From Roseobacter denitrificans OCh 114 (GTDB taxonomy: Bacteria > Pseudomonadota > Alphaproteobacteria > Rhodobacterales > Rhodobacteraceae), in the NCBI RefSeq assembly GCF_000014045.1, contig NC_008209.1:62001-126000 (forward strand): a stretch of DNA of 64,000 nt, in the 5' to 3' direction. The position numbers were made by a program, and so were the translations under genes. Every line of letters starts with the position of its first letter. Within the stretch, counting starts at the first letter, position 1. Shown one piece after another: positions 11,676 to 63,482 of the stretch. The notes beneath the pieces are model-generated. The model saw only the letters and a program-made list of their open reading frames with translations, was not told the origin of the DNA and did no database searches.

Positions 11676-11780
11676 TAGAGCGTCTGATGAAGTACCTGAC
11701 ACACCAAGCATCACGTAACCTGTCGAAACCTTTGATTTCAGGCAGCGCTACGTGATCGAGGTTTTTGCCATGGCGCTTCA
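11676..11780. repeat. Palindromic gene-end repeat, copy A
   Basis: About 105 bp, sharing the layout of copies at 20546-20650 and 31841-31939. Left arm AGCGTCTGA...ACCTGA...CATCACGTAACC, centre TCGAAACCTTTGATTTCAGG, right arm CTACGTGATCGAGGTTTTTG then CGCTTCA. The arms are imperfect reverse complements, so the RNA can fold into a long hairpin. It ends 5 bp before the lutC stop codon. Confidence 0.8.
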
Positions 11781-11784
11781 GGCT

Positions 11785-12429
11785 TCACTCTGAGATCAGC
11801 AGAATATGCATGAACCGCGGACCATGCGCACCGCGTACGTTTCTCGCTTCGATGTCGGCGGTGCCGCTGGTGCCTGTGATGATGTTGCAGCTTCGACCCT
11901 GTTTCGCACGCGTCGTACCGAAGGCGTCAAAGACATCTTCCATGTAGGGCCGGATCGTGCTGCTGCGCAAAACCGCCAGATGGTGGAGCGGCAGGAAGTT
12001 CAGCAGGACAGGTGCATCCGGCCCGGTGAAAAACACAAGTGAACCGGTTTCAGCAATGCCCGCGTCGGCAATCGTCAGAGCAATCGGCTCATTCATCTGG
12101 GCGTGATCTGTTATCTGCACGCCGGACCAGTCGATACCCCTGAGGCAGGCCCTGGGCTGCACGGCGATCTTCGCCCCCAGCTCTTTTTCCGTCAGATAAT
12201 GCGAGACGGCGGCGGGGATATCGGCGAGGGACGCCAATTGTTCAACGGTCGCGGTCACGGTTTCCGATGTGGCCTTTTCGATGAACCGGGCGATCAGCGG
12301 CTGCGGTGCAAAATCCGCGCGATAGCTATCCGGATCGGCAATCAGGGCGGACGCCTGCGCATCGATCTCAACCAGCGGTGCGGTCTGCGTCGCTGCGTCG
12401 ATTTTGGCAAGAATACTGTCGCGCGACAT
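11785..12429 (-). CDS. lutC: LUD-domain lactate utilisation protein C
   Basis: 214 aa LutC/YkgG-type LUD-domain protein. LutABC together oxidise L-lactate to pyruvate through iron-sulfur clusters. Motifs of the family: LTIADAGIAETGSLVF, LPLHHLAVL and NIITGTSGTADIE. Last gene of the dld-lutA-lutB-lutC run, 3 nt after lutB, and followed at once by a palindromic repeat that may end the transcript. Confidence 0.93.
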   Translation of the reverse strand: MSRDSILAKIDAATQTAPLVEIDAQASALIADPDSYRADFAPQPLIARFIEKATSETVTATVEQLASLADIPAAVSHYLTEKELGAKIAVQPRACLRGIDWSGVQITDHAQMNEPIALTIADAGIAETGSLVFFTGPDAPVLLNFLPLHHLAVLRSSTIRPYMEDVFDAFGTTRAKQGRSCNIITGTSGTADIEARNVRGAHGPRFMHILLISE

Positions 12430-19987: not shown

Positions 19988-20548
19988 ATGAGACCTTTTC
20001 CTTTCCTGTTGAGCGCGTTGATATGCCTTTCGGCCTGTGGCGCTGCGTCGGACAGGTATACCGTAACATCCCCGCAAGTAACACAAACCCAGACCATCGC
20101 CTTTCGCGCGGTCGAGGTGCGTGATGTGTCCCTGCCCGCCTATGCCGCCGATGACGAAATCACGGTTCAGACCACAGACGGGCGCATCCTGAGCGACGGA
20201 GGTGTGTTGTGGGCCGACACGCCGGACCGTGCCGTCGCACTGGAACTCAGCCGATATCTGACACAGATCACCCGTGCGCGTGTCGCCTCAGCGCCCTGGC
20301 CTTTCGAAGCGCTGCCCGATGCCCGCCTTGATGTGCGCTTTGAAACGCTTGTTGCGGGTGACGACGGTCAGTACCGCGCATCGGGTCAGTATTTCGTGGC
20401 GGTGCCTGACGGGCGGCGGGAACGTGCGGGGCTGTTCGATCTGTCGGTGCCCTTTGACCCTTTGATCGGACCGCCAGCCATTGCATCGGCGCGCGGGCAG
20501 ATCATTCTGGACCTCGCCGTATTCATCGCGCGCAACGGTCTGCGCTAG
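19988..20548 (+). CDS. pqiC: PqiC-type outer-membrane lipoprotein
   Basis: 186 aa starting immediately after the pqiB stop. Signal peptide with a lipobox LSAC puts the lipidated Cys at residue 17. The rest matches the ABC-type transport auxiliary lipoprotein (DUF330) family that docks PqiB at the outer membrane. Its TAG stop is the first three bases of palindromic repeat copy B. Confidence 0.9.
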   Translation: MRPFPFLLSALICLSACGAASDRYTVTSPQVTQTQTIAFRAVEVRDVSLPAYAADDEITVQTTDGRILSDGGVLWADTPDRAVALELSRYLTQITRARVASAPWPFEALPDARLDVRFETLVAGDDGQYRASGQYFVAVPDGRRERAGLFDLSVPFDPLIGPPAIASARGQIILDLAVFIARNGLR

Positions 20549-20650
20549 AGCGTCTGACGAAAAACCTGAAGTATCAAGCATCACGTAACCCGTTGAAACT
20601 ATTTATTTCAGGCAGTTTTACGTGAGTGAGGTTTTTCGCATGACGCTTTA
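20546..20650. repeat. Palindromic gene-end repeat, copy B
   Basis: About 105 bp between convergent genes. Left arm TAGAGCGTCTGACGAAAAAC and CATCACGTAACC mirror the right arm TTTTACGTGAGTGAGG and TTTTTCGCATGACGCTTTA; the centre holds a small TGAAA/TTTCA hairpin. The element supplies the TAG stop of pqiC on one side and the TAA stop of the aminotransferase on the other, so it probably acts as a two-way transcription end. Confidence 0.85.
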
Positions 20651-21775
20651 GGCCGACCAATCGCGCAACGCTTGTGACAGGCGGGCAAGACCCTGTTCCA
20701 GATTGACGCCTGCACCGCCCCCGACGCCCAATCTGATGTGCTGTGGCTGCCCATATGCGCTGCCCGGCAAAACAAACGTGCGGTAGGGATCAGCCAGCAA
20801 GAGCTTTGCAAATGCGTCACTGTCACACCCCTCTGGCAAGCGCCCCAGCCCGATCAGCCCCGCCTTTGGCGCAACCCAGCTTAACTGCGGCTCGGTCTCC
20901 AACCAGCTTGTGAGACGCGCCAGATTTGCCGCCCCCGCAGAGCGTGCATCTTGCAAACGTGGCGCCAACCGATCAGGGCGCAGGGCAATTTCGGCAATGA
21001 CTTCTCCCATGATATTCATGATCTCGGAGGTATTTTCGCGCAGAATGATCGCATCCATGACCAACGTCGGATCACGACAGATCAGCCACCCGGTGCGCAA
21101 TCCCTGCAAACCCAGTGCCTTGGAAACGGAGCCTGTGGTGATCCCCCGATCATAAAGCCCTGCAATCGAAGGCGCGCGCGGCCCTTCCCATTCCAGACCG
21201 GCATACACTTCATCCACAAGCAGCCATGCGCCCACGCGATCCGCAATATCCACGATGTCGCGCAACGCGCCCACATCAAGCACCTGCCCCGTCGGATTGT
21301 TCGGGTTGGTCAGGAAAATCAACCGGGTCCGCGGCGTTACGGCGGCGCGCAACGTATCAAGCGGCAAGACCCAGTTGTCACGCTCAGAACGCGCGACATA
21401 CACCACATTTGCGCCTTTGGCCTTGGCCAGAACCTCAGCCTGCGGCCAGCCCGGCGTTTCGATGACGATATCATCCCCCGGTTCCACAAGCTGCATGATG
21501 GCAAGGTAATTTGCCTCGGACGCCCCGGCGGTGATCAACACATCAGACGGCGTGCACACCCCATTCAGCCCGGCCTGCGCGAGCACATGTGCACGCAACT
21601 CCGGCAGGCCGCGAAAGTCACGGTTGTTCCAATCCAGAGACAGCGATGGATCAATATCCGGGATGAAATCCCCGAGGGTGGGCGAGGCCGACAGGGAAAA
21701 ACCGACAATCGCCTCGGGCTTGGATTGCGTCGATTCCAACAGATATTCAAACAGCCTGTGTATCTTGACTTTCAT
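20648..21775 (-). CDS. PLP-dependent class I/II aminotransferase
   Basis: 375 aa from ATG 21775, which has GGAG 6 nt upstream; the frame is open further upstream but that part has no family similarity. Fold-type I signatures: FLTNPNNPTGQ, LLVDEVYAGLEW, and the PLP-lysine region TGSVSKALGLQGLRTGW. Substrate not clear. Divergent from the lactonase-like gene with about 50 nt between starts. Its stop lies in repeat copy B. Confidence 0.9.
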   Translation of the reverse strand: MKVKIHRLFEYLLESTQSKPEAIVGFSLSASPTLGDFIPDIDPSLSLDWNNRDFRGLPELRAHVLAQAGLNGVCTPSDVLITAGASEANYLAIMQLVEPGDDIVIETPGWPQAEVLAKAKGANVVYVARSERDNWVLPLDTLRAAVTPRTRLIFLTNPNNPTGQVLDVGALRDIVDIADRVGAWLLVDEVYAGLEWEGPRAPSIAGLYDRGITTGSVSKALGLQGLRTGWLICRDPTLVMDAIILRENTSEIMNIMGEVIAEIALRPDRLAPRLQDARSAGAANLARLTSWLETEPQLSWVAPKAGLIGLGRLPEGCDSDAFAKLLLADPYRTFVLPGSAYGQPQHIRLGVGGGAGVNLEQGLARLSQALRDWSA

Positions 21776-21826
21776 CGGCTCCATCCGCTCTAGTCCACCG
21801 GCAACCAAAGAGGCCTTGGCGTATTT

Positions 21827-22579
21827 ATGCAACCCCTGCTTCACGGTCGGCCCGCGCGGTTGGCGATCCTTGATTATGGGTTGTTTCAGGTACATGAGGA
21901 CGGCCGCATCATCGGCATTTGTGGCTATCTGATCCAGACGACAGCCGGTGAAAACGTGCTGATTGATACAGGCTTTCCTGCCAAATACGGCGTGGATCAC
22001 GCGGCTGCGACCGAAGAAGACGCTCTGGGTGACTTTGGTCAGGTTCTGTCATTGACCGAAACAAACCTCGCCCCGGCGCAGCTTGCCCTGCTTGGTCTGG
22101 CGCGCAGTGACATCGACCTGATGATCCAAAGCCACACGCATATTGACCATGTGGGCTTCATCGGGGGCTTTCCGGGAGTGCCCATCTTGATTGCCGCAAC
22201 TGAACGCGCCCTGCCCCGCCCGCTCTACTGGTCGGGGAAACAGGCGCTGGAATGGCCTGACGCAGACTATATCGAGTTGCAGAGCGACACCAGGTTGGGC
22301 CCCGGATTTGACGTGCTGCTGGTGCCGGGCCATGCCCCGGGCCAGCTTGCCTTTGTCTTGGAGTTGCCGCACACCGGCGCGGTGGTTCTGACCTCTGATG
22401 CGATCAGCCGACCCTCAGAGCTCGATACCGATTTTGCCGGCGCATGGGATGCGCCACTTGCCCGTCAGCACGCAAACCGGTTGATGAGGCGGGCACAGGA
22501 CGACAAGGCGATGGTGATATATGGCCACTGCCCCGCACAATGGTCAGAACTGCGAAAAGCACCAAACTGGTATGATTAG
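21827..22579 (+). CDS. Metallo-beta-lactamase-fold hydrolase, AHL-lactonase-like
   Basis: 250 aa. The zinc motif H103-T-H105-I-D107-H108, followed by VPGHAPGQLAFV, ALTSD-like VLTSDAI and YGHCPAQW, matches the N-acyl homoserine lactonase branch of the superfamily. Could open the lactone ring of quorum signals, but many relatives act on other esters. Ends convergently on a small ORF. Confidence 0.85.
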   Translation: MQPLLHGRPARLAILDYGLFQVHEDGRIIGICGYLIQTTAGENVLIDTGFPAKYGVDHAAATEEDALGDFGQVLSLTETNLAPAQLALLGLARSDIDLMIQSHTHIDHVGFIGGFPGVPILIAATERALPRPLYWSGKQALEWPDADYIELQSDTRLGPGFDVLLVPGHAPGQLAFVLELPHTGAVVLTSDAISRPSELDTDFAGAWDAPLARQHANRLMRRAQDDKAMVIYGHCPAQWSELRKAPNWYD

Positions 22580-30562: not shown

Positions 30563-31852
30563 ATGCAACCAGACCTCGCCGCAGCCATAGAAAACAGACG
30601 AGACGACCTGATCGCCCTCACGCAGGCGCTGATCCGGATCCCGACGCTGAACCCGCCGGGCTGTGAGTATCACACAATCTGCCAGTTGATCGCATCCCGT
30701 CTTGAGGCGCGCGGCTTTGCCATCGAGATGATCCGCGCCAGGGGGACACCCGGCGACAGTGACACATACCCAAGGTGGAACGTTGTAGCCCGGCATGATG
30801 GGGCCACACAGGGTGAATGCGTGCATTTTAACAGCCATATCGACGTGGTCGAGGTGGGGCAGGGCTGGACCCATGACCCCTTTGCCGGCACGCTGCAGGA
30901 TGGTCGGATTTATGGCCGCGGTGCTTGTGACATGAAGGGGGGGCTTGCTGCGTCGATCATCGCGGTTGAAGCCTTCATCGACACCTACCCCGATTACGCC
31001 GGTGCCATCGAAATTTCAGGCACGGCGGATGAGGAATCGGGTGGATATGGCGGTGTCGCCTATCTTGCAGAGCGGGGGTATTTCGACCCGCAGCGTGTGC
31101 AGCATGCGATCATCCCGGAACCTTTGAACAAGGACCGCATCTGCCTTGGGCACCGGGGCGGCTGGTGGGCAGAGATCGAAACCCATGGTGAAATTGCGCA
31201 TGGCTCCATGCCTTTCCTGGGCGATTGTGCCGTGCGCCATATGGGTGCGGTGCTGTCTGAATTCGAAGACAAGCTGTTCCCCGCCATGGCCCTGCGTCGC
31301 ACCGATATGCCCGTTGTGCCCGATGGCGCGCGGCAATCCACGATGAACATCAATTCGATCCATGGCGGACAGGCCGAACAGGATGCCGATTTTGACGGGC
31401 TGCCCGCGCATTGCGTACCGGACAGTTGCCGCATCGTGATTGACCGCCGTTTCCTGCTGGAAGAACCGCTGGATCAGGTCCGTGCCGAAGTCACCGGCCT
31501 GCTTGAAACCCTTAAACAAACACGCCCGGATTTCGAATATACGCTGACCGAGATCAATTCTGTGCTGCCCTCGATGACCGACCGGGACGCGCCGATTGTT
31601 CGCGTTGTGGCACAGGCCATCGAAGAGGTGATCGGCAACCCCCCGGACTACGTGGCCTCCCCCGGCACCTATGATCAGAAACACATCGACCGGATCGGCA
31701 AGCTGAAAAACTGTATCGCCTATGGGCCGGGTATTCTGGAGCTTGCGCATAAGCCGGATGAATATGTCGGCGTCGATGACATGATCGACAGCGCGCAGGT
31801 GATGGCGCAATCGCTGGTCACACTGTTGACGGGCAAGGCCCAGAGCGTCTGA
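30563..31852 (+). CDS. M20-family ArgE/DapE-type deacylase
   Basis: 429 aa zinc amidohydrolase. Metal-site motifs: HFNSHIDVV, GRGACDMKGGLAA, and GTADEESGGYGG with the general-base Glu pair. Hydrolyses an N-acyl amino acid or similar amide; the substrate cannot be read from sequence. Its last codons, QSV and TGA, are inside palindromic repeat copy C. Confidence 0.88.
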   Translation: MQPDLAAAIENRRDDLIALTQALIRIPTLNPPGCEYHTICQLIASRLEARGFAIEMIRARGTPGDSDTYPRWNVVARHDGATQGECVHFNSHIDVVEVGQGWTHDPFAGTLQDGRIYGRGACDMKGGLAASIIAVEAFIDTYPDYAGAIEISGTADEESGGYGGVAYLAERGYFDPQRVQHAIIPEPLNKDRICLGHRGGWWAEIETHGEIAHGSMPFLGDCAVRHMGAVLSEFEDKLFPAMALRRTDMPVVPDGARQSTMNINSIHGGQAEQDADFDGLPAHCVPDSCRIVIDRRFLLEEPLDQVRAEVTGLLETLKQTRPDFEYTLTEINSVLPSMTDRDAPIVRVVAQAIEEVIGNPPDYVASPGTYDQKHIDRIGKLKNCIAYGPGILELAHKPDEYVGVDDMIDSAQVMAQSLVTLLTGKAQSV

Positions 31853-31939
31853 CGGTATATCTGAAACATCACGTTACGCTTTGAAATCTTTGATTTCACG
31901 CAGCGTTGGCGTGATTGAGGCTTTTCGCATCGCGCTTTA
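31841..31939. repeat. Palindromic gene-end repeat, copy C
   Basis: About 99 bp: CAGAGCGTCTGA at the left and TTTTCGCATCGCGCTTTA at the right, with CATCACGTTACGC...TTTGATTTCACGCAGCG in the middle. Same layout as copies A and B, in a convergent gap. It encodes the last three residues and stop of the M20 gene and the TAA stop of panC. Confidence 0.82.
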
Positions 31940-32791
31940 GCGCGCCACCGGCACGTCGATATTGTCGATCAGCCGCACCCCCGCAAGCCAAGCCGCTGCA
32001 AAGAGGCGCGCAGGTACGGATGCGTGATCAAGAAGCGACAGCGAAGCACAGGAGCGCAGTTCGAAATAATCCACGTCAGTGAAACCCGCTGCCGTCAACT
32101 GCCTGAGTGCTGTGGCTTGCAACGCATCAAAGGGCGCACCCTGTCCCAAGGCCGTGGCAGCCTCCTGCATGATCTCGTGCATGCGCGGCGCCATGGTGCG
32201 CGCGCGGTCCGACAACAGCAGATTGCGCGAGGACATGGCGAGGCCGTCTTCTTCGCGGATGGTCGGGCAGCCAACAACTTCAATCGGTATATCCAGATCG
32301 CGCGCCATGCGCTGCACAACCATGAGTTGCTGAAAATCCTTTTCCCCAAAGAACGCCTTGTCGGCAGAAGTCTGGGTAAAGAGCTTGGTCACAACGGTCG
32401 CAACACCATCGAAATGGCCGGGCCGGTGCGCCCCGCAAAGCACATCCGTCATGCCCGCCACAGAGACATTCGTGCAAAATCCCTCAGGGTAAATCTGACT
32501 GACATCAGGCGCATAGACCGCATCGACATCAAATCGGGCCAGCTTGCGGGCATCATCTTCTTCGGTGCGCGGGTAGCTCGCAAGATCAGAGGCCTTGTTG
32601 AACTGTTTGGGGTTCACAAAGATCGTCACGATCACCCGGTCGCATGCCGATTTGGCCGCAGCCACGAGGCTGAGGTGCCCGTCGTGCAAGGCACCCATCG
32701 TGGGCACGACGCCAATCGTCTCGCCCGCCAAATGCCACTCTCGCGTCGCACTGCGCAACGCGCTCAAGGTTCGCAAGACAGGCACAGTCAT
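31937..32791 (-). CDS. panC: Pantoate--beta-alanine ligase
   Basis: 284 aa. Joins pantoate and beta-alanine with ATP to give pantothenate. Nucleotidyl-transferase motifs [13 protein letters not shown] and [13 protein letters not shown], then [13 protein letters not shown]. The ATG overlaps the panB stop by 4 nt (coupled). The stop lies in repeat copy C. Confidence 0.97.
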
Positions 32792-44566: not shown

Positions 44567-44719
44567 TTAACCGAACCACGGACGCCAGATGTAAGTCGCC
44601 AAGTGAGCGACCACAGCAACTGCCGCGAACAGGAAAAGCCCGCTCATGTAGACAGAATGCAATTCTTGCGCCTGTTCGTCTGTAAGACCTGTGAAGGACA
44701 GGTCGGTATTATCAGCCAT
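44567..44719 (-). CDS. pufB: Light-harvesting LH1 beta subunit
   Basis: 50 aa: starts [20 protein letters not shown], one membrane helix with BChl-ligand His39 in [15 protein letters not shown]. Ribosome site GGAGGA. Pairs with PufA to form the LH1 ring around the reaction centre. Confidence 0.98.
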
Positions 44720-44865
44720 AAATATTCCTCCGGAACGTTATGCTGACGCCGCGCACCCCACGGCCGGGTCCTTTGGGAGTTGCCCCCCTCCGGGCTCTGA
44801 AAACCTGTTCCCAGGGTTCCAGTCTCTGGACTCGACAGGCGCACACAGGTCGAGAATTCGGGTCA

Positions 44866-62454: not shown

Positions 62455-63327
62455 ATGCGCTGGCCGCCGCCCAAAGACTGGCCGCACGCTGATCATTCAC
62501 GACAGGTTTTCTGCCATCCGCACAGATGGCATGTTCAGGAATTCGGGGCAGGGCCGACGGTTTTGCTCTTGCACGGTGCAGGCGGCAGCACCCATTCGTT
62601 TCGCGATCTCGCGACCGCATTGAGCAAAAACCACCATGTGGTGGCCATTGACCTGCCGGGACAGGGATATACGCAACTGGGTGCGCGTCACCGTTCGGGC
62701 CTCGCGTCGACAACCGAGGATATCGTGGCGTTATGTGCGCAGGAGGGTTGGCAGCCTGTGGCCATCATCGGCCACTCGGCAGGCGGGGCGCTTGCCTTGC
62801 GCCTGTCCGAACGTGTTTTTTCACCGCAGGAACAGACCCCCAGGGTCATCGGTATCAACCCTGCCTTGGACAACTTCAAAGGGCTCGCCGGGGTCCTGTT
62901 CCCCGTTCTGGCAAAACTCTTGGCCGCGGTTCCGTTCACCGCGCAGATCTTTGCATCTGCAACCAGTTCACCGGCGCGCATTGCGGCTCTCATACGCAGC
63001 ACAGGCTCTGAACTGGACGCGCAGGGGCTATCTTATTACCAACGGTTGATCAGCAACAGGAACCACGCGGATGCCACCCTGATGATGATGGCGCAATGGT
63101 CCCTTGATGATTTGCTGCGCGACTTACCGACCATTCCCGCCCAAACGCTGTTCATTGTCGGGGACAAGGACGCCACCGTACCGCCCAGCGTGTCGGACAA
63201 GGCCGCCCAAAAACTGCAAAATGCCCGCGTCATCCATCTGGAACACCTCGGCCATCTCGCCCATGAAGAAGCCCCGGAAGAGATCGCCCGGCTCATCCTC
63301 GCCTTTCTGTCCGATCATGGCGCCTGA
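62455..63327 (+). CDS. bchO: Magnesium chelatase accessory alpha/beta hydrolase
   Basis: 290 aa, starting right after bchD. Alpha/beta-hydrolase fold with LLHGAGGSTHSFRDLA, IGHSAGGALALRLS (nucleophile Ser), and HLEHLGHLAHEEAPEE with the His. BchO is linked to Mg chelation but its reaction is not defined. Stop TGA lies in a sequence resembling the left arm of the palindromic repeat. Confidence 0.93.
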   Translation: MRWPPPKDWPHADHSRQVFCHPHRWHVQEFGAGPTVLLLHGAGGSTHSFRDLATALSKNHHVVAIDLPGQGYTQLGARHRSGLASTTEDIVALCAQEGWQPVAIIGHSAGGALALRLSERVFSPQEQTPRVIGINPALDNFKGLAGVLFPVLAKLLAAVPFTAQIFASATSSPARIAALIRSTGSELDAQGLSYYQRLISNRNHADATLMMMAQWSLDDLLRDLPTIPAQTLFIVGDKDATVPPSVSDKAAQKLQNARVIHLEHLGHLAHEEAPEEIARLILAFLSDHGA

Positions 63328-63374
63328 CGAAAAACCAGACACATCATGTACCACCTCACGCGTTGATGTCCTTG
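63319..63374. repeat. Possible half copy of the palindromic gene-end repeat
   Basis: GCGCCTGACGAAAAACC then CATC and CTCACGCGTTGATG, matching the left arm of copy B, with no matching right arm. Carries the bchO TGA stop. Weaker than the other copies. Confidence 0.4.
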
Positions 63375-63482
63375 CCCCCGGGAAGCGGTGGGTGATGCCG
63401 GTGTTTGGCGTCAAGGAATATCGAAAAAGAGAGGCCGCGAACAGGTGATGCAGGATGAACTCGAAACGCTTCAGGCGCGTGG

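Follow-up and report, generated by a model that had tools for sequence, protein, structure and literature searches.

Within a 64-kb window of the Roseobacter denitrificans OCh 114 genome (the whole stretch analysed here, part of a contig of 4,133,097 bases in a genome of 4.33 Mb), two convergent genes end inside one and the same palindromic repeat, each using a stop codon formed at one of its ends. The locus raises the question of which came first, the repeat or the stop codon, and of what has kept the repeat in place. An earlier, sequence-only reading had regarded it as an element that supplies stop codons to its neighbours and that has been domesticated as a two-way terminator. We favour, with a probability of about 0.88, a different process, where an orphan miniature transposon (MITE) of the TA-duplicating, DDE type lands in a pre-existing stop codon that forms a YTAR target and rebuilds it, the rebuilt stop then being kept by selection.

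The repeat family and its distribution

The three full copies that had been recognised before (A, B and C, Table 1) align from end to end, with common arms and a central mini hairpin (TTGAAA.../...TTTCA, with TCGAAA in copy A). Copy A has an intact left TA and a right end reading TTCA where the consensus has TTTA; its stops are used by neither of the flanking genes, and the open frame leading into its TAG is only about 25 codons long. In copy B, both convergent neighbours terminate in the terminal TA plus purine. Copy C differs from the consensus by 7 bases missing after CTGAAAC and by 1 extra base in the right inner arm. The sequence-only reading was right in placing the stops of both convergent neighbours inside copies B and C, and in having copy C encode the last three residues of the upstream protein. 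The fourth copy had been overlooked; an alpha/beta hydrolase gene (62455-63327) terminates at its internal TGA, at position +9. As a separate observation, the aminotransferase-domain gene beside copy B seems to be about 600 internal bases shorter in R. litoralis (NC_015741.1, 44004-44841), where NCBI annotates nothing more than a hypothetical short gene at the 3' end (44650-44841).

Table 1. Copies of the element in the window and features of the adjoining gene ends
Feature	Position	Strand	Remarks
Copy A	11676..11780	+	105 bp; covariance model 106.5 bits
LUD-domain protein gene, right of copy A	11785..12429	-	stop 4 bases outside the element
Copy B	20546..20650	+	105 bp; covariance model 117.9 bits
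TAG stop of ABC-type transport auxiliary lipoprotein gene (19988-20548)	20546..20548	+	target TA plus first element base G
TAA stop of class I/II aminotransferase-domain gene (20648-22000)	20648..20650	-	target TA plus last element base
Copy C	31841..31939	+	99 bp variant, also in R. litoralis; covariance model 78.3 bits
CAG AGC GTC TGA, 5' end of copy C	31841..31852	+	three element-coded residues, then backup stop TGA
TGA stop of M20 peptidase-family gene (30563-31852)	31850..31852	+	element position +9, inside copy C
TAA stop of panC (31937-32791)	31937..31939	-	right end of copy C
Fourth copy, degraded and older	63316..63420	+	45 bits, E 1e-10

The element is about 105 bp long, with the consensus TA-GAGCGTCTGACGAAATACCTGAA...ATCACGTAACGCGTTGAAATC-TTT-GATTTCAGGCAGCGTTACGTGAT-TCAGGTTTTTCGCATGACGCTT-TA and the inverted ends TA-GAGCGTC... 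and ...GACGCTT-TA. Its outer arms form terminal repeats of 22 pairs, in which 91.5% of cells are paired across 32 copies, and surround an inner hairpin of 21 pairs; the consensus has stops in all six frames, so that it is non-coding. Rfam returned no family at its gathering score for the copies. A miRNA match with E 0.52 was put down to chance, its 16 bits being below the cut-off of 60.

A covariance model built from 32 copies was searched against the R. denitrificans genome and 58 other genomes, a check that the earlier reading had itself proposed. There are at least 150 matches in the own genome, and 149 of the 150 listed cover model positions 1-105, which excludes chance for the copies in the window. 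The genome counts given below refer to 148 copies, namely those on the main contig with at least 30 bits, leaving out one copy on plasmid C3 and one match of 21 bits; the fourth window copy lies outside the 150 listed matches and hence outside these counts.

Matches were found in 12 of the 58 other genomes. Among 18 other members of the genus there are at least 62 in R. litoralis Och 149 (G012), at least 23 in G014, at least 22 in G006 and at least 12 in G010, with 1-4 in six further genomes and none in eight, among the matches listed; outside the genus but within the family, two genomes have matches, 2 in one and 1 in the other. Plasmid matches are confined to 3 of 72,556 records, including an R. 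denitrificans plasmid and NC_015741.1 of R. litoralis, with a partial match in Alisedimentitalea, and no match was present among 50,697 phage records. An exact 28-base core matched once, in R. cerasinus, in a collection of named species from which the own and very near genomes may be absent. Such a patchy distribution points to amplification of the element in a few lineages. The matches in G006 score low (best E 6e-10) and perhaps represent a separate, diverged subfamily. Variants of 105 and 98 bases also occur at the same locus across species (995661 and 1007748 in R. denitrificans, 234093 and 246267 in R. litoralis), differing by a 7-base gap after CTGAAA or CTGAAAC; they could reflect independent insertions or recurrent deletion.

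Insertion at TA and the prior existence of the stop codons

For 53 of the 148 copies both flanks were found in R. litoralis, and the sites were scored as empty-like (22), filled (17) or other (14). Of the 22 empty-like sites, 13 show an overlap of exactly two bases between the flanks. In ten of them the two bases are TA, nine within YTAR and one within ATAG; the junctions of the other three are CCTA, ATTG and CTGA. The third base at 5' ends is G in 33/39 copies with a far-flank G and in 16/20 with a far-flank A, and at 3' ends it is A in 43/47 and 18/20 by far-flank class. It thus follows the element and not the flank, so that the duplication is TA. A three-base duplication, TAR, as made by IS1031, was rejected for the same reason. 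Flanks of the form Y..R are seen in 82/90 copies carrying a stop and in 45/58 other copies. Three stacked pairs, in which a copy has inserted at the terminal TA of an older one (952781/952883 on contig C1, spanning 952781-952987; 1866186, spanning 1866083-1866290; and near 1352017), show that a rebuilt junction can be hit anew. When the comparison was turned round, 20 R. litoralis copies had their flanks in the R. denitrificans DNA sampled, with 17 sites filled, 3 other and none empty; this DNA had been chosen around the copies of R. denitrificans and is therefore biased against finding empty ones.

Filled sites are not always simple. The R. litoralis site orthologous to copy 2773912 (locus L239) holds a different TA-ended element, TAAAGCGTTTCGGG...CGAAATGCTATA, which suggests a second MITE family that hit the same stop. 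The double-stop site of copy 38751 is filled in both species in opposite orientation (3981151 in R. litoralis), which may represent an independent insertion or an inversion in place. To treat all filled orthologues as vertically inherited would be unsafe in view of these two cases.

By its anatomy the element is a non-autonomous transposon, a MITE: it is short and non-coding with defined ends, has terminal inverted repeats, duplicates TA within a YTAR target, is patchily distributed and is missing from orthologous empty sites in R. litoralis. With at least 150 copies, the view that it is a mobile or amplified MITE-like palindrome is supported. A high-copy palindrome near gene ends in an alphaproteobacterium might also be a REP/BIME or RAYT-linked repeat, or belong to a family of structured RNA genes. 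This we consider extremely improbable, as it is at odds with the TA duplication, the terminal-repeat architecture of about 105 bp, the empty Rfam result and the lack of covariation between paired positions. The last point also led us to discard a conserved, structured RNA as such; the copies are decaying repeats.

Gene ends were taken from our own codon-usage gene caller and cross-checked at two sites against the NCBI annotation. Of the 148 copies, 101 lie between convergent genes, 42 between tandem and 4 between divergent genes, and 1 is unclear (no clear left neighbour); no called gene spans any of them. The copies are faced by 244 gene ends. In 102 of these the first base of the stop codon falls exactly on the terminal T of the element; another 15 stop at +8 or +9 and 5 at other positions within it, which leaves 122 with their stop outside. 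Stops at 0 or +8/9 are present at one end or both in 90/148 copies, and at both in 27. The enrichment at gene ends that the sequence-only reading had anticipated is evident from these figures.

If the element supplied new stops, by inserting at random near gene ends so that interrupted frames end inside it, the empty sites should tell. In the subset of the 13 two-base sites where both genes end at the element, all 7 have an overlapping YTAR stop in R. litoralis, shared by two open frames of 82-665 codons. The empty site of copy B reads CTAG there, and the NCBI genes overlap by these four bases (44838-44841). Of three copies with a single stop, 1072295 and 1866186 correspond to a stop at YTAR in R. 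litoralis (the site of 1866186 being the end of an older copy), and 3129691 to a TGA stop that is not YTAR. As orthologous empty sites already hold a stop at the same TA, the element has landed in an existing stop and rebuilt it. The comparison of loci lacking the element, also suggested by the earlier reading, hence upholds only part of its claim: the copies do carry the stops of their neighbours, but as a rule the genes had a stop beforehand.

Insertion creating new stops may hold for a minority of cases, as 15 of the 244 ends stop at +8/9 and 5 elsewhere inside, and as copy C and the fourth copy terminate genes at +9. As the general explanation it is highly improbable, because 102 of the 122 stops inside the element lie exactly at the terminal TA and because of the stops at the empty sites. 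The purine that follows the far TA in 55/56 single-stop copies adds little, since it is also found at 161/177 non-stop ends, as would be expected with YTAR as the target; as stand-alone proof of an ancestral stop, this purine footprint was discarded.

Landing in an existing stop proceeds as follows. The YTAR target contains the TA of an existing TAA or TAG, often where the stops of two convergent genes overlap by four bases. Insertion converts Y-TA-R into Y-TA-G...T-TA-R, duplicating the TA, and since the first base of the element, read inwards, is G on one side and A on the other, a TAR stop is rebuilt for both directions. Each new junction is again a YTAR target, permitting stacking. Transposition presumably occurs in trans, by a transposase that may have been lost, and purifying selection would remove insertions in coding and promoter DNA. 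The rebuilt stop is retained by selection, its loss at the 5' end being tolerated through the stop at +9 and giving three-residue extensions. A host function for the body of the element would not be needed.

Constraint on the terminal stop and on the element body

Element ends were classed as used or unused according to our own gene calls. The terminal triplet is still a stop at 104/122 used ends against 96/174 unused ends (p 4e-8). The stop is intact in 58/59 used and 56/89 unused 3' ends, and in 46/63 used and 40/85 unused 5' ends. The contrast is also seen within single copies: of 66 where a gene runs into one end only, 28 have kept the stop just at that end and 5 just at the other (p 7e-5). 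Age does not explain the difference, as used ends are not on higher-scoring copies (mean score 91.0 bits, against 94.5 for unused ends) and the difference is present in all three score bands (37/49 vs 16/47, 28/34 vs 25/56 and 39/39 vs 55/71). The rebuilt stop is thus kept by selection after landing.

The 3' and 5' ends also differ in intactness (p 5e-5). This would be expected if loss of the first stop is made cheap by the second in-frame one at +9 of the 5' end (TAG AGC GTC TGA); at the 3' end the next in-frame stop comes only at +21. Copy C illustrates such a loss. The orthologous copy in R. litoralis has the stops of panC and of the M20-type gene precisely at its two ends, the latter gene being annotated there as a member of the acetylornithine deacetylase/succinyl-diaminopimelate desuccinylase family. 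The first stop is TAG in R. litoralis and CAG in R. denitrificans, where the TGA at +9 takes over; the three extra residues are due to the loss of the rebuilt stop with an in-frame TGA nine bases on.

The remainder of the element behaves differently from its terminal triplet. In 15 filled orthologous pairs, some of which may be independent insertions that would lower identity, the element is 85.2% identical (1287/1511) and fourfold sites of the flanking genes are 84.1% identical (2154/2560), a difference of 1.0 point with a bootstrap range of -1.3 to +3.3. Two of the 17 filled pairs were left out here, 38751 for its opposite orientation and 2773912 for its different element; with all 17 pairs the values are 83.7% and 83.8%. 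Among 32 copies, 2 stem pairs have changed on both sides, against a mean of 2.3 after shuffling. The element body evolves as if neutral, and the terminal stop triplet alone is constrained.

These data bear on the proposal that the element is a domesticated bidirectional terminator or gene-end module, kept because its hairpin ends transcription on both sides and insulates convergent genes. Its position between convergent genes (101/148 copies) would fit, and so would the consensus hairpin, with a predicted -28.9 kcal/mol followed by TTTTT on one strand and -27.1 followed by TATTT on the other; moreover, occupancy is highest at overlapping double-stop sites (27 occupied and 10 free in the sampled DNA), where a terminator would have no space. 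However, divergence at the fourfold rate and compensatory changes no more frequent than in shuffled data are not what such a role would leave behind, 8 of the 18 other genus members have no match among those listed, and a simple terminator scan found nothing in copy B, although a scan that wants unbroken stems can miss this hairpin. We therefore do not follow the sequence-only reading on this point and regard domestication as unlikely; incidental termination by the hairpin, as modelled from the consensus, is possible.

Choice of site, source of mobility and known elements

It could be argued that the motif is sufficient, the transposase taking any YTAR and stop sites being merely the harmless survivors. 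This would agree with the similar YTAR preference of copies without a stop (45/58), with the absence of any called gene spanning the 148 copies despite 655 coding YTAR sites in the sampled DNA, and with the nearly empty divergent regions (4 copies, 341 free sites). Within convergent regions, however, stop sites are still favoured, although insertion at interior sites ought to do no harm there either. Free convergent YTAR sites in the sampled DNA comprise 10 double-stop, 52 single-stop and 163 interior sites, and the occupied ones 27, 47 and 27, so that stop sites make up 74/101 insertions against 62/225 free sites, which gives an odds ratio of 7.2 for stop against interior sites (p 1e-14). The corresponding ratio for tandem regions is 2.6 (p 0.009), and a logistic model including region type and flanking G+C gave odds of about 3.4 for single-stop and about 9 for double-stop sites. 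As free sites came from DNA chosen around copies and occupied sites from the whole genome, absolute occupancy is inflated, while contrasts within regions should hold. In R. litoralis, where 35 copies were found in sampled DNA and 32 kept, 24/32 carry such a stop and 25/32 are convergent, a replicate that is only partly independent as at least 17 of the 32 loci are also filled in R. denitrificans.

Motif plus tolerance may therefore not be the whole account of the stop excess, which goes beyond YTAR, region type and G+C. The objection is not decisive, as interior convergent sites may overlap native terminators, and we give tolerance alone a chance only slightly short of even. That the transposition system is actively drawn to sites of translation termination or colliding transcription, with purine ends adapted to rebuild stops on both strands, is a more tentative idea that we rather doubt; if true, stop codons would be a genomic safe-harbour target class for a bacterial transposon.

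The TA duplication argues for a DDE enzyme. IS630-Tc1/mariner elements duplicate TA and groups of IS5 use a YTAR target, and both features fit the Roseobacter element. No transposase with matching ends was found for it. PF13358 (DDE_3, IS630 type) gave no match in the own genome or in G006 and one partial match each in R. litoralis and G014, without matching ends. PF13340 (DUF4096), which we take to be an IS5-group domain, is likewise absent from the own genome; there are 2 matches in R. litoralis and 5 in G014, and two of the four loci inspected have a plausible terminal repeat, with different ends. TA-flanked inverted repeats with the ends of the element were not seen in any of six loci searched. 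Of the 85 places in the own genome where the exact end motif occurs, 84 fall within listed copies and the last within a further, unlisted one (about 1093375-1093483); with one mismatch allowed, no opposed pair at the distance expected of an IS was read by eye among the matches listed for 16 relatives. By these tests the family looks orphaned; the parent element may have been lost, which is compatible with MITE status.

TA-ended MITEs of this size are known, such as ERIC, RUP and Correia (PMC2229807). ERIC/IRU of enterobacteria and RUP of pneumococcus are similar in being palindromic repeats of about 107-127 bp with terminal repeats and TA ends, mainly intergenic and non-autonomous; they differ in sequence, and landing in stop codons is not among the features described in the accessible parts of these sources (PMC2229807; PMC6267812, on the ERIC-like MITEPlu5). 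RUP has a likely partner transposase, being linked to IS630-Spn1 (PMC2229807), whereas none was found for the Roseobacter element. Pneumococcal repeats are enriched between convergent genes; 36 annotated genes have their stop codon encoded by BOX, and SPRITE resembles a terminator, but BOX is a different, modular repeat, and exact landing in a stop with both ends rebuilding it does not figure in the accessible part of that report (PMC3049150). QMITE2 of Coxiella burnetii is also found mainly in 3' untranslated or intergenic DNA, and one strain has a copy that lengthens EnhC by 33 residues; it has direct repeats of 7-11 bases of variable sequence and not TA, and the accessible part of the source mentions no targeting of stops (PMC5896051). 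The REPs tagged CGTC or GTAG come close in some respects, the CGTC type being mostly alphaproteobacterial palindromes without a known transposase, and in S. wittichii and P. entomophila most convergent REPs are no more than 20 bp away from either gene end; they are hairpins of 20-40 bp with unpaired tags, however, and the part of the paper at hand gives 0 occurrences in Roseobacter and Rhodobacter (PMC3733652).

A literature search that covered few subscription journals, and so is weak evidence of absence, gave no description of the Roseobacter family or of exact stop landing with rebuilding by both ends. The kind of element is known, the family is new, and its mechanism of landing in stop codons is clear. 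Its behaviour offers a concrete and testable answer to the question of how some 150 copies of a transposon can accumulate in a genome dense with genes, namely by using as target the single codon that tolerates being cut and rebuilt, and it explains element-coded protein tails through loss of the rebuilt stop. It also provides a case where selection is shown on a codon that was partly contributed by a transposon, and it is a warning that such repeats should not be called terminators or RNA genes from their hairpins alone.
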